Positions 20,954 through 41,775 of a stretch of DNA of 64,000 bases are shown here, in pieces. Positions within the stretch are counted from its first letter, which is position 1; every line of letters starts with the position of its first letter. Under the pieces are notes generated by a model. It worked only from the letters and a program-made list of their open reading frames with translations. It made no database searches and was not told where the DNA came from. Both the position numbers and the translations under genes were made by a program. Source of the DNA: Tessaracoccus palaemonis (GTDB lineage Bacteria > Actinomycetota > Actinomycetes > Propionibacteriales > Propionibacteriaceae); assembly GCF_019316905.1 (NCBI RefSeq), contig NZ_CP079216.1:620001-684000 (forward strand). Reading direction: 5' to 3'.

Positions 20954-23900
20954 GTGCGCACTCTCGCACGTCGAATCACGGCAACGATCGCCGCGTTCGC
21001 ACTGACAACCACTGCAGTACTCGCAATGAACAACAGCGCGGAAGCGCTCAGCCCCGGCGTGTCCTTCGGGTCCGTCGACCAGCCAACCTGGCAGACCAAC
21101 GGCGTCGTCTACGCCCTCGGCTCGGCACAGGGCAAGGTCTTCGCCGGCGGCTCCTTCACGCAGCTCCGCCCGCCGTCGGGCGGCTCGGGCACCGCGCAGT
21201 CCAGGGCCGGCCTCGCTGTCCTTGACGCCGCGACCGGCGCCCCGACGTCGTGCCAGTTCACCGTGTCGGGCCTGACGAGCACCATCCGCGCGATCGAGGT
21301 GACACCCGATCAGTCGACGGTCTACATCGCCGGCGCGTTCACCTCGGTCAACGGGGTGTCCAGGACCCGCGTGGCCGCGCTCGACGTGGCCTCCTGCTCC
21401 GTCAAGACCGCGTTCAACGCGGGCGTCGTGTCTGCCGAGGTCTTCGGCCTGGACGTCTACAACAACACGCTGTACCTGGCCGGCGGCTTCTCGACCGTGC
21501 GCGATGAGACGCGCCAGTACTACGCGGCCGTGAACGCCACGACGGGCGCGCTGCTGCCCTGGACCGCCAACGGAGTGAGCTACTCCGGGGCCGGCGTCAA
21601 CAAGCGCGGCCGGGCCGTGCAGGTCTCACCCGACGGTCAGAAGGTCGTCCTCGGCGGCTACTTCTACTACATCAACGGCGAGTTCTCGCACTCCATCGCG
21701 ATGCTGAGCTCCGCCGACTCCAGCGAGCCGAACGGCACGCTGCTCAGGACCTATCCTCGGGGCTTCATCCCCGGCGACCCCAACGCGACCAGCCCAGACG
21801 CCAACGCGCCACAGGGCACCTCGGCGACGCACGCCATCACCAACGGCGCGGGCGACGGCATGTTCTACATCGCCAACGAGGGCATCGGCGGCGGCGTCTT
21901 CGACGGCCGTGCCGCCTTCCGCTGGTCCGACGGCGAGCAGGTCTGGCGCGACACGTGCCTCGGCGCCACGCAGGATCTGATCGAGGACAACGGCACGATC
22001 TACTCCGTCAACCACCAGCACGACTGCTCGGGCATCAACTTCAACCAGGACGGCCGCCGCGTCTACCTGGCGGCGCAGAACTCGCAGACGATGGAGCACT
22101 ACGGCTGGAAGCCCGACCTGAACGACGGCACCGGCGAGGGCATCGGCCCGCGCGCGCTCGACATCGCGGTCTCGGGGTCCACCCGCTACCTCTGGGTCGG
22201 CGGCGAGTTCACCAGCGTCAACGGCAGCGCCCAGCAGGGCCTGACCCGCTTCACGGACGCATCGTCCGCCCCGTCGACGCCCACCTTCGTCGGCAAGGCC
22301 ATGGACAACGGCACCATCCAGGTGACCTTCCGCACCTCGACCGACAACGACGACTCGCACCTGACCTACCGCGTCTACCGCAACGGGTCCACCACGCCCA
22401 TCTGGGAAGGCACCGCCATCTCCTACTGGTGGAAGCGTCCGCAGGTGACGTTCGTCGACTCTAGCGTCACGGCCGGGACCCTCTACACGTACCGGGTCGA
22501 GGTCTCCGACGGGACCACCACGCGCACGTCCGGCTCGGTCGGCACCCGCGCGATCGCCGCAACGGACAGCTACCAGAGGACGATCAAGGCGGACAGCCCG
22601 TCCCTGTACTGGACCTCCGCCTACACCGGCACCTCGACCACCGCCAACGCGGGCAGCTGGGTCATCGACTCCGCCGCGAACACGACGAACACGTCGGCCA
22701 GGAACGGCCTGGGCATGATGGGCCTGACCCCGAACTCGGAGGGCATCACCACCGCCGACACCTCGGGCTCGTTCACCTTCGACGGCGTCGACGACTACAT
22801 CTGGAACGATCAGCTCAGCGAAGGCACCTCGACGTACACGCTCGAGACGTGGATCAAGACCACCACCACCAGGGGCGGCAAGATCATCGGCTTCGGCAAC
22901 GGGCGTCCCAACACCGGAAACAACGCCACGTCGCTGTCGGGCAACTATGACCGGCAGATCTACATGCTGAACAACGGCCAGCTCCGCTTCGGAGTCTGGA
23001 CGGGCAGCGCCACCGCGCTGACCACGTCCACCTCCTACAACGACGGCGCGTGGCACCACATCGTCGCCACCCAGGGCGCCGACGGCATGAGCCTGTGGGT
23101 CGACGGGAACCGCGTCGCCAAGAACACCAACACCGCCGCCCAGGCGTACTGGGGTGTCTGGCACGTCGGCGGCGACAACCTCTCCGGATGGCCCGACCAG
23201 CCGGCGAGCAACTTCTTCGCCGGCCAGATCGACGAGACCGCCGTCTACGACACGGTCCTGTCGAAGACGCAGATCGCGGCCCACGCAACTGCGGGTGGCA
23301 AGACGCCCGACGTCAACGCCTCGCCCGCCGACGCCTACGGGGCCTCGGTCTACGCCGCTGACCCCGACATCTACTGGAGGTTGGACGACACCACGTCGGC
23401 CGCCAAGGACTCCAGCTACTTCGGCCAGGCGACGGGCCAGTACAACACCGGCGTGACGCACCCCGTCGCCGGGGCGCTCGGGAGCGTCAACGGCGCCCCG
23501 AACACCGGCGCCCAGTTCAACGGCACCTCGTCCGCGACCGTCTCCACGACCGTCAGCCAGAGCCCGTCGAACCCGTTCACGCTGCAGATGTGGTTCAACG
23601 CCCCGAGCAACGGCCGTGGCAAGCTCGTCGGCTTCGAGAACACGACGACAGGCAACGGATCGGCCTACGACAAGATGGTCTACATGACCGACGCAGGCCG
23701 GTTGGTCTTCGGCGTCTACAACGGCGCCACCGACACCGTCTTCAGCACGGCCTCCTACAACGACGCGACGTGGCACCAGCTCACGGTCACCCAGGACTCG
23801 TCGGGCATGAAGATGTACGTCGACGGCGCTCTCGTCGGCTCGCGCTCGGTCAGCACGGCCGAGACCGGGGCCGGGTACTGGCGCATCGGCGGCGGCAACA

Positions 23901-26872
23901 TCAGCGGGTGGCCCGACCAGCCGAGCAACTTCTACTTCAACGGCGCGATCGATGAGTTCGCCGTCTACTCGAAGGCGCTCCAGGCGTCCACCATCCAGTC
24001 GCAGTACGGCACCGTCAACCCGGACGGCCAGGCTCCGACCACCCCGGGCGGCCTCAGCGGCAGCTACGACTCCGGCGCTGCCCAGCTGACCTGGACGGCC
24101 TCGAGCGACAACCTCGCCGTCACCGGCTACCGCATCTACCGTGGGACGACGTCCGACTTCACCGCGGACGCCTCCTCGCAGATCGGCACCGCCACGGCAC
24201 TGTCCTACGCGGATCCCACCGCCACGGCGGGCACCTGGTACTACAAGGTGGCCGCGGTCGACGCGGCCGGCAACGTCAGCACGGCATCTGCCGCCGCCAG
24301 CGTGGAGGTGCCCGACACCACGGCACCCGATGCCCCGTCACTGAGCGCGACCGTCTCGGTCGTGACCAACACGCCGGCCCCGGGTGACACCACGCCGGAC
24401 ATCACGCTGGCCTGGGACGCGGTGACCGACAACGTCGCCACCACGAGCTACGCCCTGTACCGCGGCACGACGGCCGACTTCACCCCGGGCGACTCGTCGC
24501 TCGTGACGACGGTCACCGTCACCGACGCGTCGCAGACGTCGTACACCCACGTCGTGCCCAACCCGGAGCAGGGGACCTGGTACTACCGCCTGGTCGCCCT
24601 CGACGCGGCGGGCAACGCGTCGGAGCCCAGCGCGGCGGCGGAGGCCGACGTGCCGGACACGGCGGCACCCACCGCCCCGGCCGACCTGAGCGCAACCGTC
24701 GTCTCCGGCAGCGTCCAGCTCAGCTGGACCGCGTCGACGGACAACGTCGCGGTCACCGGCTACCAGATCCACCGGTCCGCCGATGCCTCGTTCACGCCCT
24801 CGGCGGCCACCCTGGTCGGCGAGTCCACGACGACCTCGTACACGGACGCGGCCCCGGCCGGCTCGTGGCACTACAAGGTGGTCGCGGTGGACGCGGCCGA
24901 CAACACGTCGACGGCCAGCGGTGTCGCCGACGCGACCGTCGCCGACACGCTCGCCCCGAGCACCCCGACGCTCAGCGCCGAGGTCGACGGGGACAGCATC
25001 GAGCTGTCCTGGACCGAGTCCACGGACAACACGGCAGTCACCGGATACCGCGTCTACCGCGGCACCACGGCGGACTTCACGCCCGACACGGGCAACCTGA
25101 TCGACGAGACCACCTCGCGCACACTGACCGACGACGACCTCGACCCCGGGACCTACCACTACAAGGTGGTCGCGTTCGACGAGGCGGGCAACGTCAGTGC
25201 GGCCAGCGAGGCGGCCACCGCCACCGTGGCGGCACCCGACACCACCGCACCGACGGCTCCCACCGTCGCGGCGACCGTCTCGGGCGACGACGTCAGCCTC
25301 ACCTGGACCGGCACCTCCACCGATGACACCGGCGTGGTCGGCTACACGCTCTACCGCGGCACGACGGACGGGTTCACGCCCGGCTCGTCGACCAAGGTGG
25401 CGGACCTCACCGGCACGACGTACACCGACAACAACCTCGACGTCGGCACGTACTACTACAAGGTGACGGCGGCGGACGCCGCGGGCAACGTCTCCGATCC
25501 CTCGGAGGCCGCGAGCGCAACCGTCGCTGCCGCCCCGGTCGATCCGGTGACGCTCGACGTGGCGATCACGGACGATGCCGGCGTCGTGCAGACCGCGGCG
25601 ACCACGAACTACGGCTCCAACACGCAGCTGTTCTCCCGTGGCTCCTCGGCCCAGCAGACGTTCATCAGGCTCGACCTGCCCTCGGCTCCGTCCGGCACCA
25701 GCCTCGCCTCGGCGACGCTGAGGCTGAGGACGTCCGCGGACACGGCCGCAGCCTCCGCCGACATCCACTCGATCGACCTGGTCTCCGGGTCGTGGACCGA
25801 GGGTGGGGTCACCTGGAACAACAGGCCGACCTCGTCGCTGGGCAACGTCGGCTCGATCGCCCCGGTGTCCAGCACCAACACGGCCTTCACCGTGACGCTG
25901 AACGCCGACCTGCTGGCTCAGCACCTCGGAGAGAGCGTCACGATCCGGATCTCCGGCGAGGGCACGGACAACCTGCGGCTGTTCTCCTCGGAGTACGGCA
26001 CGGCGTCCTACCGCCCGGCGCTCAGCCTGACGTTCGACGGCGGCACGGTCGCGGACACCACGGCGCCCAGCGCACTCTCGGGTGTCTCGGCGACCGTGAC
26101 CGACGACACCGTCGCCCTGACCTGGGGGGCGTCGACGGACAACGTCGGCGTGATCGGCTACGAGGTCTACCGGGGCTCGGCCTCGGACTTCACGGCCGAC
26201 TCCTCCTCGCGGATCGGCACTGTCACCTCTCGGAGCTACTCCGACGAGGACCTGGCGGCCGGGACCTACTACTACAAGGTCAGGGCCAAGGATGCGGCCG
26301 GCAACCTGAGTGACGCGAGCTCGGCGGCCACCGCCGAGGTCGAGGAGCCCAGCACGACGCCGGATCCGGTCTCGCTGCAGGTGGGGTCCGCCGCCGACGC
26401 CGCCGTGGTCTCCACCGCCGCGACGACCAACTACGGCAGCAATAACCAGGCCTTCTCCTCCAACGCGTCCAGCGTCCAGCAGACCTACCTCCAGTTCGAC
26501 GTCCCGGCCGTGCCGGCATCCGGGCTCTCGCTCACCGGAGTCCAGCTCCGGCTGCGGACCTCGGTGGACGCGGCCGCCGGTTCGACCGGCACCCACGACG
26601 TCAATGTGGTCACCGGTTCCTGGACCGAGGGCGCGCTGAACTGGAACAACCGCCCGACCACCGTCGGGACCAAGGCCTGCGAGATCACGGGGGCCACGTC
26701 GACGAACACGCTCTACACGGTGACCTGCGACCCGGCGGCGTTCACGCCCGGCTCGACGGTCACCCTGCGGATCAGCACGACGTCGACCGACAACCTCCGG
26801 ATCTTCACGAAGGAGTACAACTCGTCGCTCAACTACCGCCCGTCGCTTCTGCTCGACTACACGGCAGACTGA
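20954..26872 (+). CDS. Giant secreted modular protein: propeller, LamG x2, FN3 repeats, DNRLRE x2
   Basis: 1972 aa. Signal peptide 1-31 with AEA|LS cleavage. Residues ~35-440 contain repeating AGGSFTxL/AGAFTSVNG blades of a beta-propeller. ~442-545 is FN3-like. ~590-790 and ~815-1015 are two concanavalin/LamG-type domains (FTFDGVDDYIW and AQFNGTSS starts; both contain WPDQP near the end). ~1025-1515 has five FN3 units, each with GYxxYRGT and YYKVxAxDAAGN. ~1530-1695 is a DNRLRE domain, ~1700-1800 another FN3, ~1805-1972 a second DNRLRE domain (NYGSN, TEGxxxWNNRP). There is no catalytic module or sortase/LPXTG signal. Probably binds matrix polysaccharide or acts as an adhesin; inferred from its domains and the EPS setting. 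Confidence 0.88.
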   Translation: MRTLARRITATIAAFALTTTAVLAMNNSAEALSPGVSFGSVDQPTWQTNGVVYALGSAQGKVFAGGSFTQLRPPSGGSGTAQSRAGLAVLDAATGAPTSCQFTVSGLTSTIRAIEVTPDQSTVYIAGAFTSVNGVSRTRVAALDVASCSVKTAFNAGVVSAEVFGLDVYNNTLYLAGGFSTVRDETRQYYAAVNATTGALLPWTANGVSYSGAGVNKRGRAVQVSPDGQKVVLGGYFYYINGEFSHSIAMLSSADSSEPNGTLLRTYPRGFIPGDPNATSPDANAPQGTSATHAITNGAGDGMFYIANEGIGGGVFDGRAAFRWSDGEQVWRDTCLGATQDLIEDNGTIYSVNHQHDCSGINFNQDGRRVYLAAQNSQTMEHYGWKPDLNDGTGEGIGPRALDIAVSGSTRYLWVGGEFTSVNGSAQQGLTRFTDASSAPSTPTFVGKAMDNGTIQVTFRTSTDNDDSHLTYRVYRNGSTTPIWEGTAISYWWKRPQVTFVDSSVTAGTLYTYRVEVSDGTTTRTSGSVGTRAIAATDSYQRTIKADSPSLYWTSAYTGTSTTANAGSWVIDSAANTTNTSARNGLGMMGLTPNSEGITTADTSGSFTFDGVDDYIWNDQLSEGTSTYTLETWIKTTTTRGGKIIGFGNGRPNTGNNATSLSGNYDRQIYMLNNGQLRFGVWTGSATALTTSTSYNDGAWHHIVATQGADGMSLWVDGNRVAKNTNTAAQAYWGVWHVGGDNLSGWPDQPASNFFAGQIDETAVYDTVLSKTQIAAHATAGGKTPDVNASPADAYGASVYAADPDIYWRLDDTTSAAKDSSYFGQATGQYNTGVTHPVAGALGSVNGAPNTGAQFNGTSSATVSTTVSQSPSNPFTLQMWFNAPSNGRGKLVGFENTTTGNGSAYDKMVYMTDAGRLVFGVYNGATDTVFSTASYNDATWHQLTVTQDSSGMKMYVDGALVGSRSVSTAETGAGYWRIGGGNISGWPDQPSNFYFNGAIDEFAVYSKALQASTIQSQYGTVNPDGQAPTTPGGLSGSYDSGAAQLTWTASSDNLAVTGYRIYRGTTSDFTADASSQIGTATALSYADPTATAGTWYYKVAAVDAAGNVSTASAAASVEVPDTTAPDAPSLSATVSVVTNTPAPGDTTPDITLAWDAVTDNVATTSYALYRGTTADFTPGDSSLVTTVTVTDASQTSYTHVVPNPEQGTWYYRLVALDAAGNASEPSAAAEADVPDTAAPTAPADLSATVVSGSVQLSWTASTDNVAVTGYQIHRSADASFTPSAATLVGESTTTSYTDAAPAGSWHYKVVAVDAADNTSTASGVADATVADTLAPSTPTLSAEVDGDSIELSWTESTDNTAVTGYRVYRGTTADFTPDTGNLIDETTSRTLTDDDLDPGTYHYKVVAFDEAGNVSAASEAATATVAAPDTTAPTAPTVAATVSGDDVSLTWTGTSTDDTGVVGYTLYRGTTDGFTPGSSTKVADLTGTTYTDNNLDVGTYYYKVTAADAAGNVSDPSEAASATVAAAPVDPVTLDVAITDDAGVVQTAATTNYGSNTQLFSRGSSAQQTFIRLDLPSAPSGTSLASATLRLRTSADTAAASADIHSIDLVSGSWTEGGVTWNNRPTSSLGNVGSIAPVSSTNTAFTVTLNADLLAQHLGESVTIRISGEGTDNLRLFSSEYGTASYRPALSLTFDGGTVADTTAPSALSGVSATVTDDTVALTWGASTDNVGVIGYEVYRGSASDFTADSSSRIGTVTSRSYSDEDLAAGTYYYKVRAKDAAGNLSDASSAATAEVEEPSTTPDPVSLQVGSAADAAVVSTAATTNYGSNNQAFSSNASSVQQTYLQFDVPAVPASGLSLTGVQLRLRTSVDAAAGSTGTHDVNVVTGSWTEGALNWNNRPTTVGTKACEITGATSTNTLYTVTCDPAAFTPGSTVTLRISTTSTDNLRIFTKEYNSSLNYRPSLLLDYTAD

Positions 26873-28933: not shown

Positions 28934-29899
28934 TCATGCCTCTCTCAGCGTCGTCGCGTTCGCAAGGAACCACTCGTAGGTGCTCCGCAGCCCCTCAGGC
29001 AGGCCGATCCCGGCGCGCCAGCCGAGGCTCGCGAGGCGGGCGACGTCGAGGAGCTTGCGGGGGGTGCCGTCCGGCTTGGAGGCGTCGAAGGTGAGACGAC
29101 CGTCGAACCCCGTGACGGCCGCGACGGTGTGGGCGAGGTCGGCGATGGTCAGGTCCGTGCCCGTGCCGACGTTCAGGTGGCTCTGCCGCTCGGGCGCCAC
29201 GCTGCGGTACTCGTCCTTCGGCAGGCTCATGACGTGCAGCGCGGCCGAGGCGAGGTCGTCGACGTGCAGGAACTCCCGCCGCGGCGTTCCGGTGCCCCAG
29301 ATCACCACCTCGTCGCGCCCGTCGCGGACGGCCTCGTCGAAGCGGCGGATCAGCGCGGGGAGGACGTGGCTGTTCTCCGGGTGGAAGTTGTCTCCCGGGC
29401 CGTAGAGGTTCGTGGGCATGAGTGAGCGGTAGTCGCGGCCGTACTGGCGGTTGAAGCTCTCCGCCAGCTTGATGCCGGCGATCTTCGCGATGGCGTACGG
29501 CTCGTTGGTCGGCTCCAGCACCCCCGTCAGGAGGCACTCCTCCGGCATCGGCTGCGGCGCGAACTTCGGGTAGATGCACGACGAGCCGAGGAACAGCAGC
29601 TTGTCGATGCCGGCCCCGTTGGCCGCCGCGATCAGGTTCGCCTCGATCATCAGGTTTTCGTAGATGAACGAGGCGGGGAACGCGTCGTTGGCGCGGATCC
29701 CGCCGACCCTGGCCGCCGCCACGTATACCTCGTCGATGTGCGTGTCGCGGAAGAAGGCGCGGACCTCCGCCTGCTCGACGAGGTCGACATCTCCGCGGCC
29801 GGCTGTCAGCACCTCGACGTCCCGGCGCGCGCGCAGCGCACGGACGATGGCGGAGCCCACCATCCCGCGGTGCCCCGCCACGAACACCCGTCTGGTCAT
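28934..29899 (-). CDS. fcl: GDP-L-fucose synthase
   Basis: 321 aa from ATG 29899, overlapping the gmd stop. Epimerase/reductase making GDP-L-fucose from GDP-4-keto-6-deoxy-mannose with NADPH. Rossmann motif [24 protein letters not shown] around the catalytic Ser/Cys, YAIAKIAG carrying the catalytic Tyr and Lys, and the family's [24 protein letters not shown] segment. Acts directly after Gmd. Confidence 0.96.
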
Positions 29900-31020
29900 C
29901 AGTGCTCCACCGAGGAGGGGATCGCGAAGCCGTTGTTGCGGAGGAAGGCCAGGCGCAGCGACTCCTGCAGGTCCGCCTCGACCATCTCGGCGACGAGGTC
30001 GGCCACGCCGATCTCGGGCGCCCAACCGAGGTTCCGAGCGGCCCGCGAGGGGTCACCGAGCAGGGTCTCGACCTCGGCGGGACGGAAGTAGCGGGGGTCG
30101 ACCCGCACGATGACGTCGCCGGGCAGGAGGTTCGTCTCGGCACCGTCGCGCACGTGCTCGACGACGCCGACCTCGTCGACGCCCTTGCCGTCGAAGCAGA
30201 GCGTGATCCCAAGTGCCTTCGCCGTCCAGTCGACGAACTGCCGCACGGAGTGCTGGACGCCGGTGGCGATCACGTAGTCCTGCGGGATGTCCTGCTGCAG
30301 CATCTGCCACTGCAGGCGCACGTAGTCCTTCGCGTGCCCCCAGTCGCGCAGCGAGTCCATGTTGCCGAGGTAGAGGCAGTCGTCGAGGCCGGTGAACACG
30401 CGGGAGAGGCCGCGCGTGATCTTGCGGGTCACGAACGTCTCGCCGCGTCGGGGCGACTCGTGGTTGAACAGGATGCCGTTGCAGGCGTACATGCCGTAGG
30501 ACTCGCGGTAGTTGACCGTGATCCAGTAGCCGTACAGCTTGGCCACCGCGTACGGGGAGCGCGGGTAGAACGGGGTCCGCTCGGTCTGCGGGATCTCCTG
30601 CACGAGGCCGAACAGCTCGCTGGTGGAGGCCTGGTAGAAGCGCACGGTGTCCTGCAGGCCGAGGAGGCGGATGGACTCGAGTAGACGCAGCGCGCCGAGC
30701 GCGTCGACGTCGGCGGTGTACTCCGGTGCCTCGAAGCTGACCGCGACGTGCGACTGGGCTCCCAGGTTGTAGATCTCGTCAGGCTGGACGTCCTGCACGA
30801 TGCGGGTGAGGCTCGTGGCGTCGGTCAGGTCCCCGTAGTGCAGGAAGAGGTGCGGGTCGCGCTGGTGCGGGTCCTCGTAGATGTGGTCGATCCGCTGGGT
30901 GTTCAGCTGCGAGGAGCGGCGCTTGATGCCGTGTACCTCGTAGCCCTTCTCGAGGAGGAACTCGGCGAGGTAGGAACCGTCCTGGCCGGTGATGCCGGTG
31001 ATGAGAGCTCGCTTGGACAT
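29899..31020 (-). CDS. gmd: GDP-mannose 4,6-dehydratase
   Basis: 373 aa from ATG 31020 with AGGAG 5-6 bases upstream (a GTG at 31026 would add two residues). Converts GDP-D-mannose to GDP-4-keto-6-deoxy-D-mannose. NADP-binding [26 protein letters not shown] typical of GMD, catalytic STSELFG and the Tyr/Lys pair in [10 protein letters not shown], then [16 protein letters not shown]. The first two bases of the gene overlap the phosphatase stop region, so the order phosphatase-gmd-fcl-GT is one message. Confidence 0.97.
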
Positions 31021-31022
31021 TG

Positions 31023-31688
31023 TCACTCCTGCGTGGACTGGGTGGAGAGGCGGTCGATGAGGTCGACGAGCGCGGGCTCGACGAGTGCGAAGGTGGTGGC
31101 GAAGGCGCTGCTGCGCCGGCCGGTCGGGTCGGAGATGTCGTCGGCCGCGCCGGGGCTGGAGACCAGGCCCCGCTGGCCCGAGGCCAGCTTGACGAGGCCG
31201 CTCACCGCTCCACCATCGGTGGGGGTGGGCGCGTCGGTGGCCGCGAGGAGGCGTCGGAACTGCAGCAGGGTGAACATCTTCCGGCGGTGCGCAGGGGCGA
31301 TCCTGCCCGCCTCGTCCCGGTGTCGCCGGGTGGCGGTCAGCACGAGATCAGCCGAGGTCAGGTCGTCGACGGTGAGCTGGCTGACGCTGAACTCGTCGAC
31401 GTCCACGCCGGCCCTGGCGAGCTGGCGTCGGACCTCGGGGTGGACGGTGCGACCGGCAGGGGCCTGCAGCCCGGCGGACCGGATCTCCAGGGAGTCGAGG
31501 CCTGCCCGCGCCGCGAGGTGGCGGAGCATGAGGTCCATGTAGGCCGACCGGCTGACGTTCGCCTGACAGACGAAGAGCACCGTTCCGAGGCGGGGCGCGT
31601 CGACGCTGCCGCGGATGACGTGGAGGATCGGCGCCGGGTCGAGAGCCGGCTGCTCGGTCCTCAGCGCTGAGGTCGTGGTCGCTGTCAT
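31023..31688 (-). CDS. Low-molecular-weight protein-tyrosine phosphatase
   Basis: 221 aa with a ~33-residue N-terminal lead. The P-loop is CQANVSRS (Cys41, Arg47), fitting the C-x5-R-S rule, and the general acid lies in ISDPTGR. LMW phosphatases next to BY-kinases dephosphorylate the kinase tyrosines and set EPS chain length or export (Wzb/Wzc model). It overlaps the BY-kinase stop by four bases, a direct kinase-phosphatase pair. The region between the P-loop and DP is longer than in short bacterial Wzb. Confidence 0.9.
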
Positions 31689-33772
31689 GATGTGATCGCC
31701 TCCGTGATCGTGTCGGCAAGCACCCCGTAGCCATCGGCGTTGGGGGCCTTCCCGTCCCGGGTGAACAGGTCTTCGTGGTGCGCGAGAGGGAAGCCGACGT
31801 CGAGGTAGTCGACCCCCGCCTGATCCGCGCTGTGCGCGACGGCCGAGGCCGTCTTCGAGAGGGTGTCAGGGGTGGTGTTGCCGACCGGCATCGGCGACAG
31901 GACGACGATGCGGGCGGCGGACAGCTCGGAGCGGAGCCTCTCGAACAGGCTGAGCGACGCCGCGGCCACGTCCTTGTCCCCGTCGTAGGCCCCTCCCGAG
32001 ACCAGCACGACGTCCGGCTCGACGGCGATCACGCCGTCGGCCATCTCGACGAACGTCGGGCAGGTGTCGTGGCCGCACGCCGACGCATCGGCGCTGGTCA
32101 CGTAGCCGGTTGCGGCCCGGCCGAGGTTGACCTCGTCCCAGCCGAGCTCGGCAGAGACCAGGGATGGCCACGTCGTGCCGTCGCCCCCGATGCCCTGCAC
32201 GAGGGAGTCCCCGACGAACACGGCAACCGGCTTCGGGTCGCCGAGCGACACGGCAGGGGAGGACGCCTGCGAGGCGGACGCGTGGGACGCATTGCCCGTC
32301 CACGAGGAGAGCAGCATGCCGGCCACGGCGACGCACAGGGCCACCGCGGCGGCCAGCGCCACCTTGCCCACCGTCCGGAGGCGCTGGTTGTCCCACACCG
32401 ATGCCCTCTGGGGCGCGCCGTGGGTGGCGAGGTTGTGCGAGTACGCGTAGGCGTTCGGGGTCGGATTGTCGCGGACGAGATTGAGGATGGAACCCTTCAG
32501 CGGAACGTCGGCGATCTCGAGGGCGGTCAGGGCGCGGCGCAGGTCGGCGGTGCGTGCCCGGTGCGCGCCGACGACCAGGACGATGCCGCCGAACTGCCGC
32601 CCCAGCACCTTGGCGTCGGTCACGGCGTTGAGCGGCGGAGAGTCGATCACCACCACGTCGAAGCGGCGGTGGATCTGGTCGAGCACCTCACGCCCACGCT
32701 CGGAGCCGAGCAGCTCGCTCGGGTTGGGTGGCACGGTGCCGGCGATCAAGACCTGCAGGCTGTCCGGCCCCCACGGCTGGATCGCGTCGTCGAGTTCGCA
32801 GTCGCCGACGATCACGTCGGTGAGCCCGGCGCCTCCGGTGAGGTCCAGCGCATCGACCAGCACCGGGCGCCGGAGGTCGGCCTCCACGAGGCAGGTTGAC
32901 ACGCCCTCGGCCGCGAAGGCCGCCGCCAGGTTCATGGCCGTGGTCGACTTTCCCTCCCCGCTGATCGCGGACGAGAAGACCAACGCGCGGTGGTCCGAAC
33001 CGGGAAGGAACTTCAGCGCCGTGCGGATCTGTCGTACCTGCTCCGAGCGCACCGACAGCGGCGCGGACGCCACTGCGACCGGGCTCGTCTCGGCTGCCCG
33101 GTCGCGGCTGATGGTGCCGAGCGGGGTGAGGCCCAGGGTGTCCGTGAGTTCGTCTGCCGTGCGGACGCGAGCGAAACTCAGCTCGGCGATGACCTGGTAG
33201 GCGAGGCCGACGAGCAGCCCGGCGAGCGCGCCGAAGATGGCGAAGAGCCCGATGTTCGGCGATGACGGCGAGCGCGGCACCGTGGCCGACTCGATCAGCT
33301 GCGCCTTCACGGGAGAGCCCGACACGTCGTCGACCTTCGGGCTGAGTCCTGCGACGGTCTCGGCCAGGTGGCTTGCCGTCGAGTTGGCGATGGCCGCGGC
33401 CACGGCCGGCTCCGGGTCCGTGGCCTCGATGGTCACGAGCGACGTGTTGAGGGGGACAGAGGCCGAGACGGACCTGCGGAGCCCCTCGACGGTCGTGTCG
33501 AGGTCGAGCTCCTCGATCACCGGTGCGAGGACGATCTCGCGGGTGGCGATCGCGGCGAAGTTGCGGGCCTGCTGCTGCGAGAAGGTGCTGCCCTGGGCCA
33601 GCTCTCCGGTGGTCTGCCCGCTGGTGACGGTGATGACGACGTCGGCGCTCGCGGTGAACTCGGGCGTGCGCGTTGCGGCCAGCCCGATTCCGGCGGCTGC
33701 TCCGAGCAGCGTCGCCAGCACGATGAACAGCCAGTGCGCCCTCAGAAGGCGAATGGCGTCGCCAACGGTCAT
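31685..33772 (-). CDS. Wzz-type co-polymerase/BY-kinase fused to an extracytoplasmic SGNH domain
   Basis: 695 aa from ATG 33772 (GGAGGG about nine bases upstream). TM1 (14-32), Wzz periplasmic domain, TM2 (174-194). The cytoplasmic BY-kinase follows: Walker A SGEGKST (271-277), A' VEADLRRP, B VVVID (373-378); the only nearby tyrosines are Y442 and Y444, so no usual Tyr-rich tail. A third TM (469-489) places the C-terminal SGNH/GDSL domain (about 514-692) outside. That domain keeps GDS (Ser523) and the block II Gly (551), but block III reads SGGAYD (no Asn) and block V reads DGKAPNADGY where D-x-x-H is expected, so the catalytic His is Ala676. First gene of the operon running to 27584. Confidence 0.9.
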   Translation of the reverse strand: MTVGDAIRLLRAHWLFIVLATLLGAAAGIGLAATRTPEFTASADVVITVTSGQTTGELAQGSTFSQQQARNFAAIATREIVLAPVIEELDLDTTVEGLRRSVSASVPLNTSLVTIEATDPEPAVAAAIANSTASHLAETVAGLSPKVDDVSGSPVKAQLIESATVPRSPSSPNIGLFAIFGALAGLLVGLAYQVIAELSFARVRTADELTDTLGLTPLGTISRDRAAETSPVAVASAPLSVRSEQVRQIRTALKFLPGSDHRALVFSSAISGEGKSTTAMNLAAAFAAEGVSTCLVEADLRRPVLVDALDLTGGAGLTDVIVGDCELDDAIQPWGPDSLQVLIAGTVPPNPSELLGSERGREVLDQIHRRFDVVVIDSPPLNAVTDAKVLGRQFGGIVLVVGAHRARTADLRRALTALEIADVPLKGSILNLVRDNPTPNAYAYSHNLATHGAPQRASVWDNQRLRTVGKVALAAAVALCVAVAGMLLSSWTGNASHASASQASSPAVSLGDPKPVAVFVGDSLVQGIGGDGTTWPSLVSAELGWDEVNLGRAATGYVTSADASACGHDTCPTFVEMADGVIAVEPDVVLVSGGAYDGDKDVAAASLSLFERLRSELSAARIVVLSPMPVGNTTPDTLSKTASAVAHSADQAGVDYLDVGFPLAHHEDLFTRDGKAPNADGYGVLADTITEAITS

Positions 33773-33888: not shown

Positions 33889-35334
33889 GTGAGCCTGACA
33901 ACGGAATCAGCTGCTGAGGCGCACGGGATGCGGCGCCGACCGGCCGCCGCGGTCTGGATGGCCGCTTCCGTGTTGGTTCTGTCCGTCGGGTTGCCGGCCG
34001 CGCTGCTCGCGGAGGTTCCGGACATCGAGCGGAGCCGGGCATGGGTCCTGACAGCGCTCGTCATGGTCTGGGCAGGCATCCGCCTGTCGGTCATCTGGCT
34101 GCGCGGTGTGCCGGCGCTGTTCGAGCTGTTCTTCTGGCTCTTCGCCTACATCTTCATGGGCGTCGCACCGACCGCGCAGCTGCGCTCCGGGGAGATCTCG
34201 ACCACGACGTCTGGAATCGATCCCGCCCTTGACATGCCCACCGCGCTCATCGTGGTGGGCGGCCTCGCCTCGTACGAGGTCGGGAGACTGATGTGGGTGG
34301 CGCTGCGACGACGCGACACCGTCAGTGAGGAACCCGCAGTCGCGGTCAGCGCCCCCAGATCCATCGTGCTCATGGGCGCAGGGCTCCTGTTCGGCGCCTA
34401 CTTCCTCGCGAAGGTCGGGGTTGGGGCGTCTCTCGGCTCGCGTGCCGCGGCCTTCGCGGCGCGCAACGCCGCCTGGCCTGACCCCTCGATGCGCGCCGTG
34501 TTCTATGCCCTGGCGATCTACCCGATGCTGGTTGCGGTCGGCGCCCTTGTACAGATCAGGCGCGACGCCTCCGGGATGAGGCGTGCGACCCACACAGTGA
34601 TGATCGCGATCGGCCTGCTGATCCTGATGGCGATCGTCAGCCCGATCTCGAGCGCCCGCTACACCTTCGGCACCGTGGCGTTCGCGCTGGTCGCCTATCT
34701 CGGGGCGCTGAGGACAGCCGGTCGGGCGCGGATCACGATGCTCGGCACCCTCGCAGGCTTCCTCTTCGTCTTCCCGCTCGCCGACGCCTTCCGGACCGAC
34801 GAGGTGCGGCTGACGAGGTCCGGGTTCTTCCAGGAGTACCTCGGCAACCCCGACTACGACGCGTTCTGGCAGATCGCCAACGCCTACTCCTACACCGTGG
34901 ACGGACTGGTCGAGCCTGGGCGGCAGCTGCTGGGCAGCATGTTCTTCTGGGTGCCACGCAGCATCTGGCCCGACAAGCCGATCGACACCGGTGCCCTGCT
35001 CGCGCAGTACCGGGGTTACTCGTTCGACAACCTGTCGGCCCCCCTGTGGGCCGAGCTGCTGGTCAACGGGGGCGTCGTCGCGGTGGTCGTCGGATTCCTG
35101 GTCCTCGGCGCGCTGCTGGCGGCCATGGACCGCAAGGTGGGACCGACCTTCGCGTCGTCGGGCTGGTGGGCCATCGTCGGCGCCATCCTTCCCGTCTACA
35201 TGACGATCCTGCTGCGCGGTTCGCTCCTGCAGGCGACGGGGTCGATCGTCGTCGCGGTGGCGTGCCTGTTGTGGGTCAGGCGAGCGCCGACGCGTAGTGC
35301 TGCTCCAGAGACGCGGCGATCGCCTCCATCGTGA
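33889..35334 (+). CDS. Wzy-type O-antigen/EPS polymerase
   Basis: 481 aa from GTG 33889. About 11-12 TM helices with a large extracytoplasmic loop near residues 290-370 (FRTDEVRLTRSGFFQEYLGNPDYDAFWQIAN...). The segment FFWVPRSIWPDKPIDTG is characteristic of Wzy/WzyE-like polymerases. Joins lipid-linked repeat units outside the membrane. Sequence identity within this family is low, so the call rests on topology, motif and locus. The last 59 bases overlap the convergent glycosyltransferase gene. Confidence 0.82.
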   Translation: MSLTTESAAEAHGMRRRPAAAVWMAASVLVLSVGLPAALLAEVPDIERSRAWVLTALVMVWAGIRLSVIWLRGVPALFELFFWLFAYIFMGVAPTAQLRSGEISTTTSGIDPALDMPTALIVVGGLASYEVGRLMWVALRRRDTVSEEPAVAVSAPRSIVLMGAGLLFGAYFLAKVGVGASLGSRAAAFAARNAAWPDPSMRAVFYALAIYPMLVAVGALVQIRRDASGMRRATHTVMIAIGLLILMAIVSPISSARYTFGTVAFALVAYLGALRTAGRARITMLGTLAGFLFVFPLADAFRTDEVRLTRSGFFQEYLGNPDYDAFWQIANAYSYTVDGLVEPGRQLLGSMFFWVPRSIWPDKPIDTGALLAQYRGYSFDNLSAPLWAELLVNGGVVAVVVGFLVLGALLAAMDRKVGPTFASSGWWAIVGAILPVYMTILLRGSLLQATGSIVVAVACLLWVRRAPTRSAAPETRRSPPS

Positions 35335-36400
35335 GGTCCGACCGCACGAACTCGCGGCCGCGCCGGCCGCAGTCGAGGGCCAGTTGGGGGTCGCTGAGCA
35401 GCGCGTCGACGGCGTCGACGAACGCGTCGGTCGAGTCGCCCACGACGATTCCAGCGCCGGCGCGTTCGACGAGGGGGGCAAGGCCACAGGTGTCGGTGAT
35501 GATCACCGGCCGGCCGACCGACATGGCCTCGAGCACCGACATGGGGTACGGCTCGTTGATCGACGGCAGGACGTAGATCGTCGAACGCGAGGTGCGCTCC
35601 AGCACGAGGTCCGGGCCGAGTGGACCCTCCCAGGCCACCGGCACACCGGCGTTGACGGCCTCCCGCACCGCCTGCTTGACCGCCGGCCCCTCGCCCTCGT
35701 CCGGCCCGACGATCGTGAACCGTGCCCGGGGGTGTTTCTCGTGCAGGGCGCGCGCGGCGTCGACGAGCAGCATGGGCCGCTTGCGCGGCGCGAGCCGGGC
35801 GAGGAACAGCACCTCGGGCCCCGCCACGCTGACCGGCGGCGGGTCCGCCAACGGCACCCCGTTCGCGAGCTCGGCCAGCCGCAGCGCTGGGCCGGCCACC
35901 TCGAGCAGCTGGCTGCGCTCCAGTGCGGTGAGATGGAAGATCTCCCGGGCTCCGCGGAGGACGGGGCGCGTCATGAGCGCATCGAGCGGGCGAGCCAGCG
36001 GGTTGTCCGACGGGTCGATCATGCCGTGCGTCTGCAGGAAGTACGGGACCCCCTCCAGCCGGGCGATGGCGGCCGCGGGCAGCGTCACCAGGTCGCGCGC
36101 CGCGTGCACGTGCACGACGTCGGCGCTGCGCACATGGCGGAGCAGCCAGGCCCACAGTCCGGGCGCCGCGAGGCCGGCGAAGCCGGCGCCGGGCAGGACC
36201 TGGATGCCGCGGAACAGGTGGAGCGGGACCCCGTCCAGCTGCGTGGGCACCTCGTCGCGCGGGAAGCCGCGCGTCGAGGCGATGATCTGCACCTGGTGCC
36301 CGCGGTCCTGCAGCGCCTTCGCCTGGTTGACCGCCACCCGCACGGGGCCGCCGTACTCGCCCAGCGGGCTGATGAGCGTGACGACCGACAGGATTCTCAT
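35276..36400 (-). CDS. GT4-family glycosyltransferase
   Basis: 374 aa from ATG 36400, which overlaps the stop of the acetyltransferase gene (ATGA). GT-B fold: N-terminal SPLGEYGGPVRVAVNQAKAL, the donor-domain start VLFLARLAPRKRPMLLVDA, and the EX7E-type segment PSINEPYPMSVLEAMSVGRPVI. Acts on the EPS repeat unit; donor sugar unknown. The 3' end overlaps the wzy 3' end by 59 bases in the opposite direction. Confidence 0.9.
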   Translation of the reverse strand: MRILSVVTLISPLGEYGGPVRVAVNQAKALQDRGHQVQIIASTRGFPRDEVPTQLDGVPLHLFRGIQVLPGAGFAGLAAPGLWAWLLRHVRSADVVHVHAARDLVTLPAAAIARLEGVPYFLQTHGMIDPSDNPLARPLDALMTRPVLRGAREIFHLTALERSQLLEVAGPALRLAELANGVPLADPPPVSVAGPEVLFLARLAPRKRPMLLVDAARALHEKHPRARFTIVGPDEGEGPAVKQAVREAVNAGVPVAWEGPLGPDLVLERTSRSTIYVLPSINEPYPMSVLEAMSVGRPVIITDTCGLAPLVERAGAGIVVGDSTDAFVDAVDALLSDPQLALDCGRRGREFVRSDLTMEAIAASLEQHYASALA

Positions 36401-36945
36401 GCCGCTGGGCGCTTGCGGAGCAGCGGCTCGGCGACCGGGGCGAGCACGATCTGCCCATCCGCGACGTCCTTGACCACCAGTGCCCCTGAGCCGACCACCG
36501 CGCCATCGCCGACCGTCACCCCGCGCAGCACCGTCGCGCGGGCCGCGATCCACGTGCCGTTGCCGATGGTGATGGGCGCGTTGTCCAGCTCGAACGTCGG
36601 CGAGTGCATGTCGTGCGAGCCGCTGCACAGCAGCGCAGACTGCGAGATGATCGACTGGCTCCCGATGCTCACCTGCACCAGGTTGAGGATCCAGGCGTCC
36701 TCACCGATCCAGGAGTGGTCGCCGACCTTGAGCCGCCACGGCCAGTGCACACGCACGCGCGGCTTGATGTAGACGCCCTCGCCGATCTCGGCCCCGAACG
36801 CCCTGAGAATCCTGACCCGCAGCCCGGCCGGGCACCACCACCGGACGAACACCAGCCCCGAGACCAGCTGCCACAACACCTGCCACACAAAGCCACGACC
36901 CTTGTCGTATCCCGTGCAGCCACTGAGATCCCACCGCGGTTCCAT
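36397..36945 (-). CDS. WcaF-like hexapeptide O-acetyltransferase
   Basis: 182 aa from ATG 36945 (AGAGGGGGG upstream). Left-handed beta-helix repeats: IGEGVYIKPRVRV, VGDHSWIGEDAWI, IGSQSIISQSALL, then ITIGNGTWIAARATVLRGVTVGDGAVVGSGALVVKDV. The CSGSHD segment is typical of WcaF/NodL-type enzymes with a catalytic His. Probably O-acetylates an EPS sugar using acetyl-CoA. Co-transcribed with the following GT. Confidence 0.88.
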   Translation of the reverse strand: MEPRWDLSGCTGYDKGRGFVWQVLWQLVSGLVFVRWWCPAGLRVRILRAFGAEIGEGVYIKPRVRVHWPWRLKVGDHSWIGEDAWILNLVQVSIGSQSIISQSALLCSGSHDMHSPTFELDNAPITIGNGTWIAARATVLRGVTVGDGAVVGSGALVVKDVADGQIVLAPVAEPLLRKRPAA

Positions 36946-37064: not shown

Positions 37065-38291
37065 GTGCGCGCACTGTCCGGGCTCAACAAGGCGTTCGGG
37101 TATGCCCTCTCCATGCTCCTGCTCGCCGTCGCCTCCCTCGTGGTCATCCCGGCGATGATCCGGGCCAGCGGCGACGCCGCCTGGGGTGCAATCGCGGTGG
37201 GGCAGTCGGTGGGGGCGATCGCCGCGGTCGCCGTCGCCTACGGCTGGTCGCTGTCCGGGCCGGCGGAGGTCGCGCGCGGCTCCGCCGACCAGCGGCGCGA
37301 GGAGTTCGTCTCGTCGGTGAAGGTGCGGCTCTCGCTGTTCGTGCCCGTCGTCCTGGTGGCGGTGCTGGTGTCGATGCTACTGGCCCCCGCTCGACCGGAC
37401 CTCGCGACACTCGGCAGCGCCACGGCCTCCCTGGCGGGGCTCACCGCCAACTGGTTCTTCGTGGGTCTCGCGCGCCCCTACGTCTTCCTGCTTGTCGAGA
37501 CCGTGCCGCGGGTGGTCGGCACGCTCGTCGGCATCCTGCTGATGCGACACGGAGCCGACGCGGGCCTGGGGCTGGCCTGTCAGTCGGCGGGATTCCTTGT
37601 GGCCTTCTGCCTGTCCTCCGTCTGGATCTTCGCCTACCTCAGGCGGTCCGGGGCGGTGCCCGCCGTCGTGCCGGGGCTCGGCCCGCTGCTCCGCAGCCGC
37701 GGCGACGGGCTCGTGTCTGCGCTGGGCAGCGCCGGCTATGTCGCGGCGCCCGTGATCATCGTCTCCGCCGTCGCCCCCGCGGTGCAGCCGCTGTACGCGC
37801 TGGCCGACAAGCTGCAGCGCCAGGTGTCGGTGGCCATGGGGCCGGCCGTCACGGTGCTGCAGGGCTGGGTGCCGCGCGGTCGTCACTCCGCGTCCCGTGC
37901 GCGGCGGGGGCTGGCCGGCAGCGCGGGAATCGCGGTGCTGATGGCGCTGGCGGTCTGGGTCGCGGGGCGGCCACTGCTCGGCTGGCTCGGGGCGGGAAGC
38001 CTGGAGCCGTCGGGGGTCCTCGTGGTGCTGATGGCCGTGTTCGTGGCCTTGAACTTCATGGAGTCGGTGATCGCGAAGACGGTTCTGGCGACGTTCGGGA
38101 AGCTGCGGGCCGTCGCCAGGGCGACACTCGTCGGCGCCCTGGTGGGACTGCCGCTCGTCGCCGCCGGCGCGGTGTGGTGGGGTGCCGAGGGTGCCCTGGT
38201 CGGCGTGGTACTCGGCCTCGCGGTCAGGATGGGGTGGGAACTGGTGGTGGCGTTGCGCGTCCTGCGCGGCGCCGGGACGGAGGAGCTGTGA
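37065..38291 (+). CDS. Wzx-type polysaccharide flippase
   Basis: 408 aa from GTG 37065 with GGGGAGGAA six bases upstream; an earlier in-frame start at 37023 lacks a site. 11-12 predicted TM helices of the MATE/PST fold. Early helices start with NKAFGYALSMLLLAVASLVVIPAMI, and ALADKLQRQVSVAMGPAVTVLQGWVP is a typical Wzx loop. Moves undecaprenyl-linked repeat units across the membrane for the Wzy polymerase. The stop overlaps the following ATG by one base. Confidence 0.85.
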   Translation: MRALSGLNKAFGYALSMLLLAVASLVVIPAMIRASGDAAWGAIAVGQSVGAIAAVAVAYGWSLSGPAEVARGSADQRREEFVSSVKVRLSLFVPVVLVAVLVSMLLAPARPDLATLGSATASLAGLTANWFFVGLARPYVFLLVETVPRVVGTLVGILLMRHGADAGLGLACQSAGFLVAFCLSSVWIFAYLRRSGAVPAVVPGLGPLLRSRGDGLVSALGSAGYVAAPVIIVSAVAPAVQPLYALADKLQRQVSVAMGPAVTVLQGWVPRGRHSASRARRGLAGSAGIAVLMALAVWVAGRPLLGWLGAGSLEPSGVLVVLMAVFVALNFMESVIAKTVLATFGKLRAVARATLVGALVGLPLVAAGAVWWGAEGALVGVVLGLAVRMGWELVVALRVLRGAGTEEL

Positions 38292-38989
38292 TGGCACTGC
38301 TGGACATCGCGACGACGGCCGTGTGGCTGCTGCCTGCGAGCCGGGCGAAGAACGCCCTACTCAGGAAGGTGGGGCATGACGTGTCGCCGAGCGCCAGGGC
38401 CGCGACGAATCTTGTGCTACGCGTGCGGCGGTTCACCGTGGGCGACGGGGCCCTGGTCGGGAGGTTCAACCTGTTCAAGGACCTGTCGGCGGTCGAGCTG
38501 GCGCCGGGGTCGCGCATCGGGCGGATGAACCTCATCTCCGCGCACCCCGTGTACGCCCGCCACTACCCGGACGGGGCGCGGCTCAGCCTGGGGGACAAGG
38601 CGAAGATCACGTCGCGGCACAGCGTGGACTGCTCAGGTGGGGTCACCGTCGGGGCGCTCGCCTCGGTGGCGGGCCGGCAGACGCTGATCCTCACCCACAG
38701 CGTCGACCTCGCGCGGGACGCGCAGGTCGCGCATCCGGTGGTGGTGGGGGAGCGCAGCTTCGTGGGCGCCCGGTGCCTGCTCCTGGGTGGCGCGTCACTG
38801 CCTGAGAGATCCGTGCTGGCCGCCGGTTCCGTGCTCACCCGATCGGGTAAGCGGGACCGGGGCGTCTGGGCCGGGGCGCCCGCGACGTGGCGCGCGCCGA
38901 AGGACGGACTGTGGTTCGACCGCGAGGAGACGTCGACGCACCGCCTCTACGTCCCGGCCACGGGGGAGACGCACGAGGGCGTGATCTGA
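38291..38989 (+). CDS. Hexapeptide-repeat acyltransferase-like protein
   Basis: 232 aa, start ATG 38291 coupled to wzx (TGATG). Contains a left-handed beta-helix core: VGDGALVGRFNLF, LAPGSRIGRMNLIS, LSLGDKAKITSRHSVDCSGGVTVGALASVAG, then VVVGERSFVGARCLLLGGASLPERSVLAAGSVLT and the WAGAPA end motif of the family. A hydrophobic N-terminus (ATTAVWLLPAS) may touch the membrane. Substrate unknown; EPS decoration is likely from context. Confidence 0.82.
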   Translation: MALLDIATTAVWLLPASRAKNALLRKVGHDVSPSARAATNLVLRVRRFTVGDGALVGRFNLFKDLSAVELAPGSRIGRMNLISAHPVYARHYPDGARLSLGDKAKITSRHSVDCSGGVTVGALASVAGRQTLILTHSVDLARDAQVAHPVVVGERSFVGARCLLLGGASLPERSVLAAGSVLTRSGKRDRGVWAGAPATWRAPKDGLWFDREETSTHRLYVPATGETHEGVI

Positions 38990-39807: not shown

Positions 39808-41775
39808 TCAGCGGCCGGAGCTGCTCACCGCGTGGTACGAGAGGTCCTGCTGCGTGACGGTGGCCGTCACCGCGTCCTTGGTCTTCACCGAGGCGACGGT
39901 CGAACCCGACCTCGTCGCTGTCACCGTCGTGTACCCGGTCTCCAGCGCGAACGTCTTGGCGCTCACCCCGGCCGGTGCCGTGTAGCTGTAGCTCTTGCTG
40001 CCGACCTTGACGCTGACGGTGGTGGACGCCTTCAGGAACGTCAACAGCTCGACGGTGTCGCGCGGGGTGGTGCGGTTGCCGCTCCACTGGACCATGACGC
40101 CGCTGTAGGACGGCTTGGTCTTGTACGACTGGATGCGGTGCGTGACGTAGATCACGTCGGAGGTGATGGCGGGCTTCGCATCGGTCTTGAACTGCGTGGC
40201 GTAGTACTTGCTGATGTCGAGGAAGCTGTAGCCGTGGTCGTCCGAGGGGGCGAAGCTCGTGCCCTCCGAGTAGTCGTTCCAGGTGGTCAGGAGCACCCAG
40301 TCCGCGTCCTGCGAGATGGCCTTGTCCCAGCCTGCGCGCAGGGTCTCGGTGTTGCCGGCCTCGTCGTACAGCTTCTGGTTCGGGCGCTCGTCCTGGACGG
40401 CGACGGGCTGCATCCACAGCTTGCCCAGCTTGTGCGCCTGCGCGGCGTAGTCGGGGCCGTTGGCCGTCAGGAGCGGGTCGCGGGCGCCCCAGTTGCCGAA
40501 GCCCATGCTGATCGACGCGTAGTCGCTCATCTTGCTGGCGTTCAGGAAGACGGGGAAGAAGGCGGTGGAGATGGAGTACTTGGACTTCATCAGGTCCAGG
40601 ACCGACTTCCACTGGGAAGCGGTCTTGTTCTCCGCCTTGAAGGGGGAGATCACGACCTTGCCGCCCACCTTGTAGACGGACGAGTACTTGGACAGCGTGG
40701 CGAGGGCGGCGGCGAGATCCGCGTCGGAGGCCTTGCCCGCGTTGGCGGTGGCGTCGACCTGCAGCATGATCTTGAAGTCACTCGAGACAGCCTCGGCTGC
40801 CTGCATCAGCAGGACGGTGCGGTCCCAGTTCGAGCCGCTCAGCGAGAGGATGTCCACGGCGAAGCCGTCGATGCCGGCGTCGATGGCCTGCCTGACCTCG
40901 GTCTTCAGGTCCGCGAGCTTGTAGTTGCTCGAGATGGGGTCGCGGGTGAGCGGGCGGTCGCGCAGCAGGCCGCCGACGCTCGCGTACTTGCCGTTCTCGC
41001 CCGAGGCGACGAGGTAGTGCCTCGCGTAGTAGTCAGCGTCGCTCGCCTTGTTGTCGATGGAGACGGGGTACGGCGGGAAGTAGTGCGCGAACACCATCTT
41101 TCCGTTGTCCGTGGCCGAGTCCGTCGCCTCGGACGTCTTGTCGGAGGTGCTCGAGTTGCTGCTCGAGCCGCTGGTGGAGATCGTGACGGTCAGCGTCGGG
41201 GCCTTGGCGCCGGTGGCCGAGAAGTTGAGCTGTGCCGCCGAGACAGTGTTGCGGACCTCGAACGAGGCTCCGGTCGTGATCTGGGAGGCGACCTTCGACG
41301 CGTTGAGCTTCAGCGCGCTGGTCTTGCCGGCCGGGGCGGTCGAGGTGGTGTTGACCTCCGCGCCGAGGGCGGCCGGGCGTGCGGCGTACGTGACCTTGGC
41401 TGCGGTCCAGGAGTTGTTCACCGGGACCACGGTCACGTCGGTGCTGCCCGAGCCGCCGACCGACGTCACGTTCAGGTTGAGGGACGCGTCGGTGATGGAC
41501 TCGCCGGAGGCCAGCGTCAGCTTGTCGAAGCCGAGATAGCTCGCGTACATCGTCTTGCTGCCGAACAGGGTGGTGGCCGTCGAGAAGTTCTTCGTCGTGG
41601 CGGCGCTGGAGGTGTAGGTGGTGCGGGTCGCGGGAATGGTGACCGTGCGGGTCGTGGCCGCGTCCTCAGCCTGGGCTGTGGGGGCGAGCAGGGCTCCGCC
41701 GCCGATCAACGTGCTCAGGAGGACGGCGAGGAGCAGCGCTCCGAGCGTCCTGGGGCGGACTCTGAATGACTTCAT
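39808..41775 (-). CDS. Secreted GH71-type endo-alpha-1,3-glucanase with N-terminal DNRLRE domain
   Basis: 655 aa from ATG 41775 (MKSFRVRPRT); signal peptide to about residue 36 (AQA|ED). Residues ~40-205 form a DNRLRE-like beta domain (SLNLNVTSVGG, NSWTAAKVTYAARPA), followed by a Ser/Thr-rich linker. The GH71-like barrel is at ~225-560: MVFAHYFPPYPVSIDN, DIDGFAVDIL-type strand GIDGFAVDILSLSG, then VSPFKAENK and WVLLTTWNDYSEGTSFAP. A C-terminal beta domain closes the protein. Predicted to cut alpha-1,3-glucan in the matrix of this organism or of neighbours. The same DNRLRE module type occurs twice in the giant protein at 20954. Confidence 0.87.
   Translation of the reverse strand: MKSFRVRPRTLGALLLAVLLSTLIGGGALLAPTAQAEDAATTRTVTIPATRTTYTSSAATTKNFSTATTLFGSKTMYASYLGFDKLTLASGESITDASLNLNVTSVGGSGSTDVTVVPVNNSWTAAKVTYAARPAALGAEVNTTSTAPAGKTSALKLNASKVASQITTGASFEVRNTVSAAQLNFSATGAKAPTLTVTISTSGSSSNSSTSDKTSEATDSATDNGKMVFAHYFPPYPVSIDNKASDADYYARHYLVASGENGKYASVGGLLRDRPLTRDPISSNYKLADLKTEVRQAIDAGIDGFAVDILSLSGSNWDRTVLLMQAAEAVSSDFKIMLQVDATANAGKASDADLAAALATLSKYSSVYKVGGKVVISPFKAENKTASQWKSVLDLMKSKYSISTAFFPVFLNASKMSDYASISMGFGNWGARDPLLTANGPDYAAQAHKLGKLWMQPVAVQDERPNQKLYDEAGNTETLRAGWDKAISQDADWVLLTTWNDYSEGTSFAPSDDHGYSFLDISKYYATQFKTDAKPAITSDVIYVTHRIQSYKTKPSYSGVMVQWSGNRTTPRDTVELLTFLKASTTVSVKVGSKSYSYTAPAGVSAKTFALETGYTTVTATRSGSTVASVKTKDAVTATVTQQDLSYHAVSSSGR

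Follow-up and report, generated by a model that had tools for sequence, protein, structure and literature searches.

Fusion of an SGNH Domain to a Wzz-BY-Kinase

To our knowledge, it is not settled by what means a Wzz-BY-kinase is informed of the condition of its polymer. This question bears on a locus of Tessaracoccus palaemonis in which a domain predicted to lie outside the cell and the tyrosine segment of such a kinase are physically connected. As judged from the protein sequences, what is new here is the fusion of an SGNH ectodomain to a BY-kinase co-polymerase, the catalytic His of this domain appearing to have been lost repeatedly; no description of SGNH combined with a BY-kinase or Wzz was found in searches of the open-access PMC literature. 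The window, i.e., the whole stretch of 64,000 nucleotides that was analysed, comes from a genome assembled as a single contig of 3.2 Mb.

The fusion gene (31685–33772, minus strand, as are all the parts of it given below) starts with an ATG at 33772, preceded by a purine-rich ribosome site (GGGGGGGAGG), and its stop codon TGA shares bases with the start codon of the tyrosine phosphatase gene that follows (ATGA overlap). Its open reading frame, coordinates and strand are those of the original prediction. According to the open reading frame, domain matches, hydropathy and motifs, the product of 695 aa is arranged as Wzz, BY-kinase, TM3 and SGNH domain. Residues 1–200 (33173–33772) are read as the Wzz/PCP part, with TM1 and TM2 located by hydropathy; Pfam Wzz matches residues 7–88 with 24.8 bits, just below its cut-off of 25.5, and TIGR01006 scores 82.2 bits on the fusion protein (cut-off 296). 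The BY-kinase domain (residues 239–445; 32438–33058) is recognised by NCBIfam TIGR01007 at residues 244–440 (2.1e-44, 151.5 bits vs. a cut-off of 108.05) and by the motifs SGEGKSTT at 271, VEADLRRP at 296 and VVVIDSPP at 373, which we take to be Walker A, A' and B, respectively. Among solved chains, the best matches are Staphylococcus aureus CapA1-CapB constructs, with 4jlv_A first.

Between the kinase and TM3 lie two tyrosines, Y442 and Y444 (Y442-A-Y444; 32441–32449; placed by hydropathy and the clade alignment), which are invariant in the 11 proteins of the kinase clade (11/11). Only some 26 residues separate them from TM3 (about residues 471–489; 32306–32362), hence the tyrosine tail would be tethered. 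It had been proposed that these two residues replace the typical Tyr-rich tail: both do sit before TM3, but the tyrosine cluster is better described as kept, though internal, than as replaced. Hydropathy gives three TMs in total, and the full-length model, which is of low confidence (pLDDT 65.5, pTM 0.33) and from which only helix positions were taken, has a helix at 463–489. Arg and Lys flank TM3 on its kinase side and, with the kinase inside, a third TM should place the SGNH domain outside.

The SGNH domain itself (residues 516–693; 31694–32227) is matched by Pfam Lipase_GDSL_2 (PF13472) at residues 519–682 (1.2e-12, 49.1 bits vs. a cut-off of 32.9), so that the SGNH ectodomain announced behind the third TM is upheld by this match together with the three hydropathy TMs. 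The structure prediction suggested at the time as a check was carried out with AlphaFold2 and yielded a confident model (pLDDT 94, pTM 0.91), in which strands and helices alternate as in SGNH folds. Cys566 and Cys571 (32060–32077), an invariant pair in the column comparison of fused domains, probably form an outside disulfide. In the named collection, the relatives of the domain belong to Tessaracoccus, Arachnia, Brooklawnia and other Propionibacteriaceae. Searched against plasmids, the SGNH domain gave no match, while the whole fusion protein matched 666 records, all below 60% identity and none over 80% of its length. A single weak PHROGs match, to a head-decoration family (E 0.00065), was set aside.

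Active Site of the Window Domain

When the usual marks of SGNH enzymes are looked for, the block I Ser is present, i.e., Ser523 in GDS (32204–32206), whereas the block II Gly, the block III Asn and the DxxH of block V are absent. Alignments show Ala554 (32111–32113) in place of the block II Gly, this position (N549 plus 5) having been assigned by motif from alignments with 9otv_A and relatives; the block III Asn is replaced by Tyr596 (31985–31987), as located by the motif GGAYD at 593–597; and block V (31745–31756) is located by DGKAP at 673–677, where the alignment shows Asp673 kept and the His changed to Ala676. The degraded triad first reported, with Ser523 kept, Ala676 for the His and no block III Asn, is therefore confirmed, and Ala554 adds a further loss to it. 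Since another genome (G021), whose protein is 97% identical, has the same residues, the changes are not a sequencing error.

Experimental work on relatives helps to weigh these replacements. For the SGNH lipase SrL, PMC10779480 reports that Ala in place of the catalytic His or of the block III Asn abolishes activity, and that Ala in place of the block II Gly is tolerated. For OafA, 0.87% of wild-type activity is left after a His to Ala change, according to PMC7448272, and the same source and PMC9487903 describe OafA/OafB and BcPatB1 as working with unusual oxyanion holes. Because other oxyanion holes work and the Gly to Ala change is tolerated in SrL, it is the loss of the His that carries the argument for a dead site, and the window domain would be incapable of the usual Ser-His-Asp esterase chemistry. 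Altogether, an SGNH ectodomain with a degraded site on a Wzz-BY-kinase is real, and neither chance nor artefact.

Distribution of the Fusion and of the Catalytic His

The family search covered 198 genomes, 38 of which had an SGNH match at 1e-12. The fusion was found in 10/198 genomes, each time with a kinase domain. Two of these genomes, the window genome (G000) and G021, belong to the window's genus, and the other eight to the genus g11. The expectation that proteins with the order Wzz-BY-kinase-SGNH always lack the His failed, as four of the ten (G353, G305, G155 and G405) keep it in block V; a dead site is thus ruled out as a defining trait of the architecture. In the other six (window, G021, G386, G157, G168 and G232), the His is replaced by A, A, T, R, T and R, respectively. 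As for the other site residues, the Ser is found in 10/10 fusions, the Asn in 7/10 and the Asp in 9/10.

Three close sister pairs are split at the His: G386(T)/G155(H), G157(R)/G353(H) and G168(T)/G405(H). On the SGNH tree, at least four changes (two states) or five (by residue) are required. In view of the three different replacing residues and of the relatives that still hold the His, several independent losses would be the simpler reading; the His may also have been regained, or exchanged by recombination. The surroundings of the three pairs are collinear over 10.7 to 12.2 kb, which means that no change of neighbouring genes accompanies the change of the His.

Nor is the loss special to the fusion, inasmuch as unfused SGNH proteins are also His-less: the His is present in 4/10 fusions, in 1/16 SGNH proteins adjacent to a kinase gene (15/16 without it) and in 6/12 other SGNH proteins (6/12 without it). 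These counts exclude G404, where the SGNH frame ends at the contig end, while G035, where the neighbouring gene ends after the Wzz part, was counted as adjacent, and G028, whose SGNH frame simple gene picking overlooked, was placed by other searches. Outside the flank reading were the family matches G252, G369, G244, G077 and G375, and the order matches G089, G121, G152, G207, G236, G329 and G378. In a class-wide sample of 26 SGNH loci, which leaves out weaker matches (e.g., those in G651, G612 and G762, with frames of 694, 786 and 727 aa, respectively), no kinase motif was seen in the SGNH frame itself or up to about 1.5 kb away (0/26), and the D..HP motif was present in 23/26.

Linkage, Trees and the EPS Locus

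Flanks were read for 39 SGNH loci. These comprise 10 fusions, 17 loci with the kinase gene next door, one in which the kinase lies at a distance of 5 kb and 11 with none in the stretch; hence, 27/39 are fused to, or adjoin, a Wzz-BY-kinase gene, a proportion that describes these matches rather than all SGNH genes, since both linked and unlinked members had gone into the search profiles. Regarding orientation, 15 of the 17 adjacent kinase genes are divergent, one is on the same strand and one is convergent.

In the SGNH tree, the fused domains form one clade (95/95). The kinase tree is a quick one, with SH-aLRT support only; it unites the 10 fusions and G007a in one group (SH-aLRT 100), G007a branching beside the window pair (94). 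The kinases of G284 and G343 join this group (13 rows, SH-aLRT 100), but their SGNH genes are separate neighbours, with an intact triad in G343 and a degraded one in G284. A second group gathers 14 kinases (SH-aLRT 100), whose stand-alone SGNH partners are His-less as far as readable; in one of its members (G022), the SGNH partner is about 86 kb away. G007a, the kinase of the fused clade in G007 (L135 9807–11369, minus strand), keeps TM3 and ends before any SGNH domain, and this genome also carries a separate kinase and SGNH pair. Given its nested position, the missing domain is best read as a loss and, as both TM3 and the locus remain, the module is dispensable there.

The genes around the fusion are those of an EPS locus. 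The low-molecular-weight tyrosine phosphatase (31023–31688, minus strand; PF01451, 72.4 bits vs. a cut-off of 23.2), which shares the ATGA overlap, adjoins all 10 fusions. Domain searches further identified a GDP-mannose 4,6-dehydratase (gmd; 29899–31026, minus strand), found between the phosphatase and a second family 4 glycosyltransferase (GT4) in the window and G021 and further off in the g11 loci, and, backed by the locus comparison, a first GT4 (35276–36628, minus strand) and a GH71 glycoside hydrolase (39808–41862, minus strand). A divergent membrane protein (33889–35334, plus strand), Wzy-like by position and look only and without Pfam match, is matched at the same place in each of the nine remaining fusion loci and also where the kinase has TM3 alone. 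GH71, GT4, the Wzy-like protein, the phosphatase and the second GT4 were all matched in 9/9 other fused loci. Many of the same EPS genes occur in a different order in the G284 and G343 loci, no phosphatase match being seen in the latter.

A few neighbours deserve a separate mention. A hexapeptide-transferase-like gene (38174–38989, plus strand), 4.4 kb from the fusion, is found in the G021 and G007 loci and not in the eight g11 loci; its occurrence does not track the SGNH domain, and it was rejected as a companion of the latter. Also near the EPS locus, the window encodes a surface-like protein of 1972 residues (20954–26872, plus strand) with Laminin_G, CBM96 and fn3 matches. In other genomes, the gene following a stand-alone SGNH gene often has a phosphatase domain, fused in the two cases tested to RmlC and RmlD: directly beside a degraded stand-alone SGNH, single proteins (L137 6965–9049 and L139 6654–8603, both on the minus strand) combine RmlC (dTDP-4-dehydrorhamnose epimerase), RmlD and a low-molecular-weight tyrosine phosphatase.

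Possible Roles of the Ectodomain

Our main reading, to which we give a probability of roughly 0.55, is that an EPS co-polymerase tyrosine kinase absorbed a neighbouring gene for a membrane-anchored SGNH esterase, the product of which is here a non-catalytic outside module. The neighbouring gene would have fused to the kinase gene, and the ectodomain, beside the Wzz domain, would most likely hold the nascent glycan or steady the Wzz/Wzy assembly. Meanwhile, Y442/Y444 would pass through the usual cycle of phosphorylation by the kinase and dephosphorylation by the coupled phosphatase, the short stretch that bears them being anchored to the kinase on one side and, via TM3, to the outside domain on the other. 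That the domain is maintained although His-less, here and in several relatives, suggests that it binds or supports rather than cuts; from the sequence comparisons, a binding or structural role would be favoured because of the linkage, the selection (see below) and the invariant pocket residues. A counterargument is that the four fusions with the His look catalytically competent, so that an enzymatic role may be general and the dead copies exceptions.

A more elaborate version would turn the protein into a receptor-like kinase: the dead outside pocket would bind the growing or decorated glycan and move the phospho-acceptor tyrosine segment via TM3, so that the status of the glycan sets the assembly of the Wzz ring inside. 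The ectodomain may signal through TM3, and we hold the full scheme to be rather unlikely.

Conversely, the domain might be a structural relic, namely just a folded cap lending stability to the Wzz assembly or TM3, in which catalysis was dropped since the EPS has lost the relevant acyl group, and which is on its way out. Such a fate would agree with the repeated loss of the His among fusions, with the domain-less G007a nested in the clade and with the unchanged neighbouring genes in the three collinear pairs that differ at the His. It would also agree with the pace of the SGNH domain, which changes faster than the kinase and could thus be under weak constraint: for the four closest pairs, dN of the SGNH part exceeds kinase dN by a factor of about 2 to 22. 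In these pairs, omega is 0.11 to 0.19 vs. 0.02 to 0.16 for the kinase, and two more distant pairs give 0.22 to 0.23 vs. 0.09 to 0.12. Nevertheless, purifying selection acts between two His-less copies, as the window copy and that of G021, both with Ala676, differ by 8 nonsynonymous changes over 404 sites and 14 synonymous changes over 142 sites (p 0.00024, from a simple count without rate bias). Moreover, neither the Ser nor one wall of the pocket varies (Ser523, N549-L-G-R, T555-G-Y, G593-G594 and C566/C571 being unchanged in the nine distinct fused domains, while the His column is more variable than 138 of the 178 domain columns), and 10/11 clade members retain the domain, all of which makes a relic on its way out doubtful.

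Alternatively, the domain could still be an enzyme, either with another base, such as His666, or with the fusions acting as acyltransferases with an unusual site. Atypical SGNH sites are indeed known (PMC9487903 and PMC7448272); the retention of the Ser in all fusions and of the Asp in all but one points the same way. His666 is, by sequence, the nearest candidate for a replacement His, and a His stands at this position in several proteins without the block V His (window, G021, G386, G163, G286 and G195). Yet it is missing in three of the His-less fusions (G157, G168 and G232) and present in G155, where the block V His is normal, as well as in G163 and G286, which both lack the nucleophile Ser; this patchy occurrence leaves His666 as a stand-in base unsupported by sequence. 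Furthermore, a His to Ala change kills activity in the tested relatives (PMC10779480 and PMC7448272), and no acyltransferase-3 (AT3) match is seen at these loci, within what the assemblies show. AT3 (PF01757) has no match in the fusion protein and, in the 11 genomes searched, matches lie only on other contigs or at least 86 kb away on the same contig; no AT3 donor was thus found in the fusion locus, with the caveat that several of the assemblies are split into many contigs. On balance, we consider a surviving enzyme improbable.

One pair invites a last explanation. Over 11.6 kb, the G168 and G405 loci (L118 and L119) share 95.9% identity, which drops to 79–91% in the SGNH part and, less deeply, to 89–93% in the kinase part. 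Diversifying pressure on the ectodomain as a variable surface target (phage or other surface contacts), with the loss of catalysis as a side effect, is very improbable, since a sharp local peak of divergence in the SGNH part appears in only one of four pairs, and since dS is raised there along with dN (0.57 vs. 0.22 in the kinase), which fits an import by recombination equally well, with omega far below 1.

Regarding the favoured binding or structural module, the close pairs that differ in the His and the domain-less member of the clade allow separate tests of whether catalysis, the domain and the tether are required.

Comparison with Known Systems

The nearest counterpart in the same genome is a TM-SGNH protein (G000 C1:1629504–1630196), which resembles the fusion in its TM followed by an SGNH domain, in its Cys pair and in being 34% identical over residues 471–694, but differs in that Ser, Gly, Asn, Asp and His are all present; no kinase was found in the 19 kb around its gene. 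The stand-alone degraded TM-SGNH proteins of Propionibacteriaceae share with the fusion the linkage to a BY-kinase, often also to a phosphatase, and the degraded site; in contrast, they are encoded by a separate gene, have a shortened block V loop and, in six cases, have lost the Ser (R three times, T, V and G).

Among characterised systems, the AT3-SGNH proteins OatA/OafA/OafB, together with PatA/PatB, likewise have an outside SGNH domain next to a membrane part and a cell-surface glycan, as described in PMC9487903, PMC7448272 and PMC12148441. The fusion departs from them in having no AT3 match in the protein or the locus and in the replacement of the block V His, the block III Asn and the block II Gly. 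Finally, the BY-kinases Wzc/Etk and CapA-CapB/CpsC-CpsD (PCP-2a/2b) have a two-TM Wzz part, Walker motifs, tyrosines after the kinase and a coupled phosphatase gene, as does the window protein with its putative Wzz part. In Wzc, according to PMC8285477, the tyrosine tail enters the active site of the neighbouring protomer, and phosphorylation breaks the octamer. Unlike in these kinases, TM3 and the SGNH domain follow the tyrosines in the window protein, where the tyrosine segment is not a free C-terminal tail.
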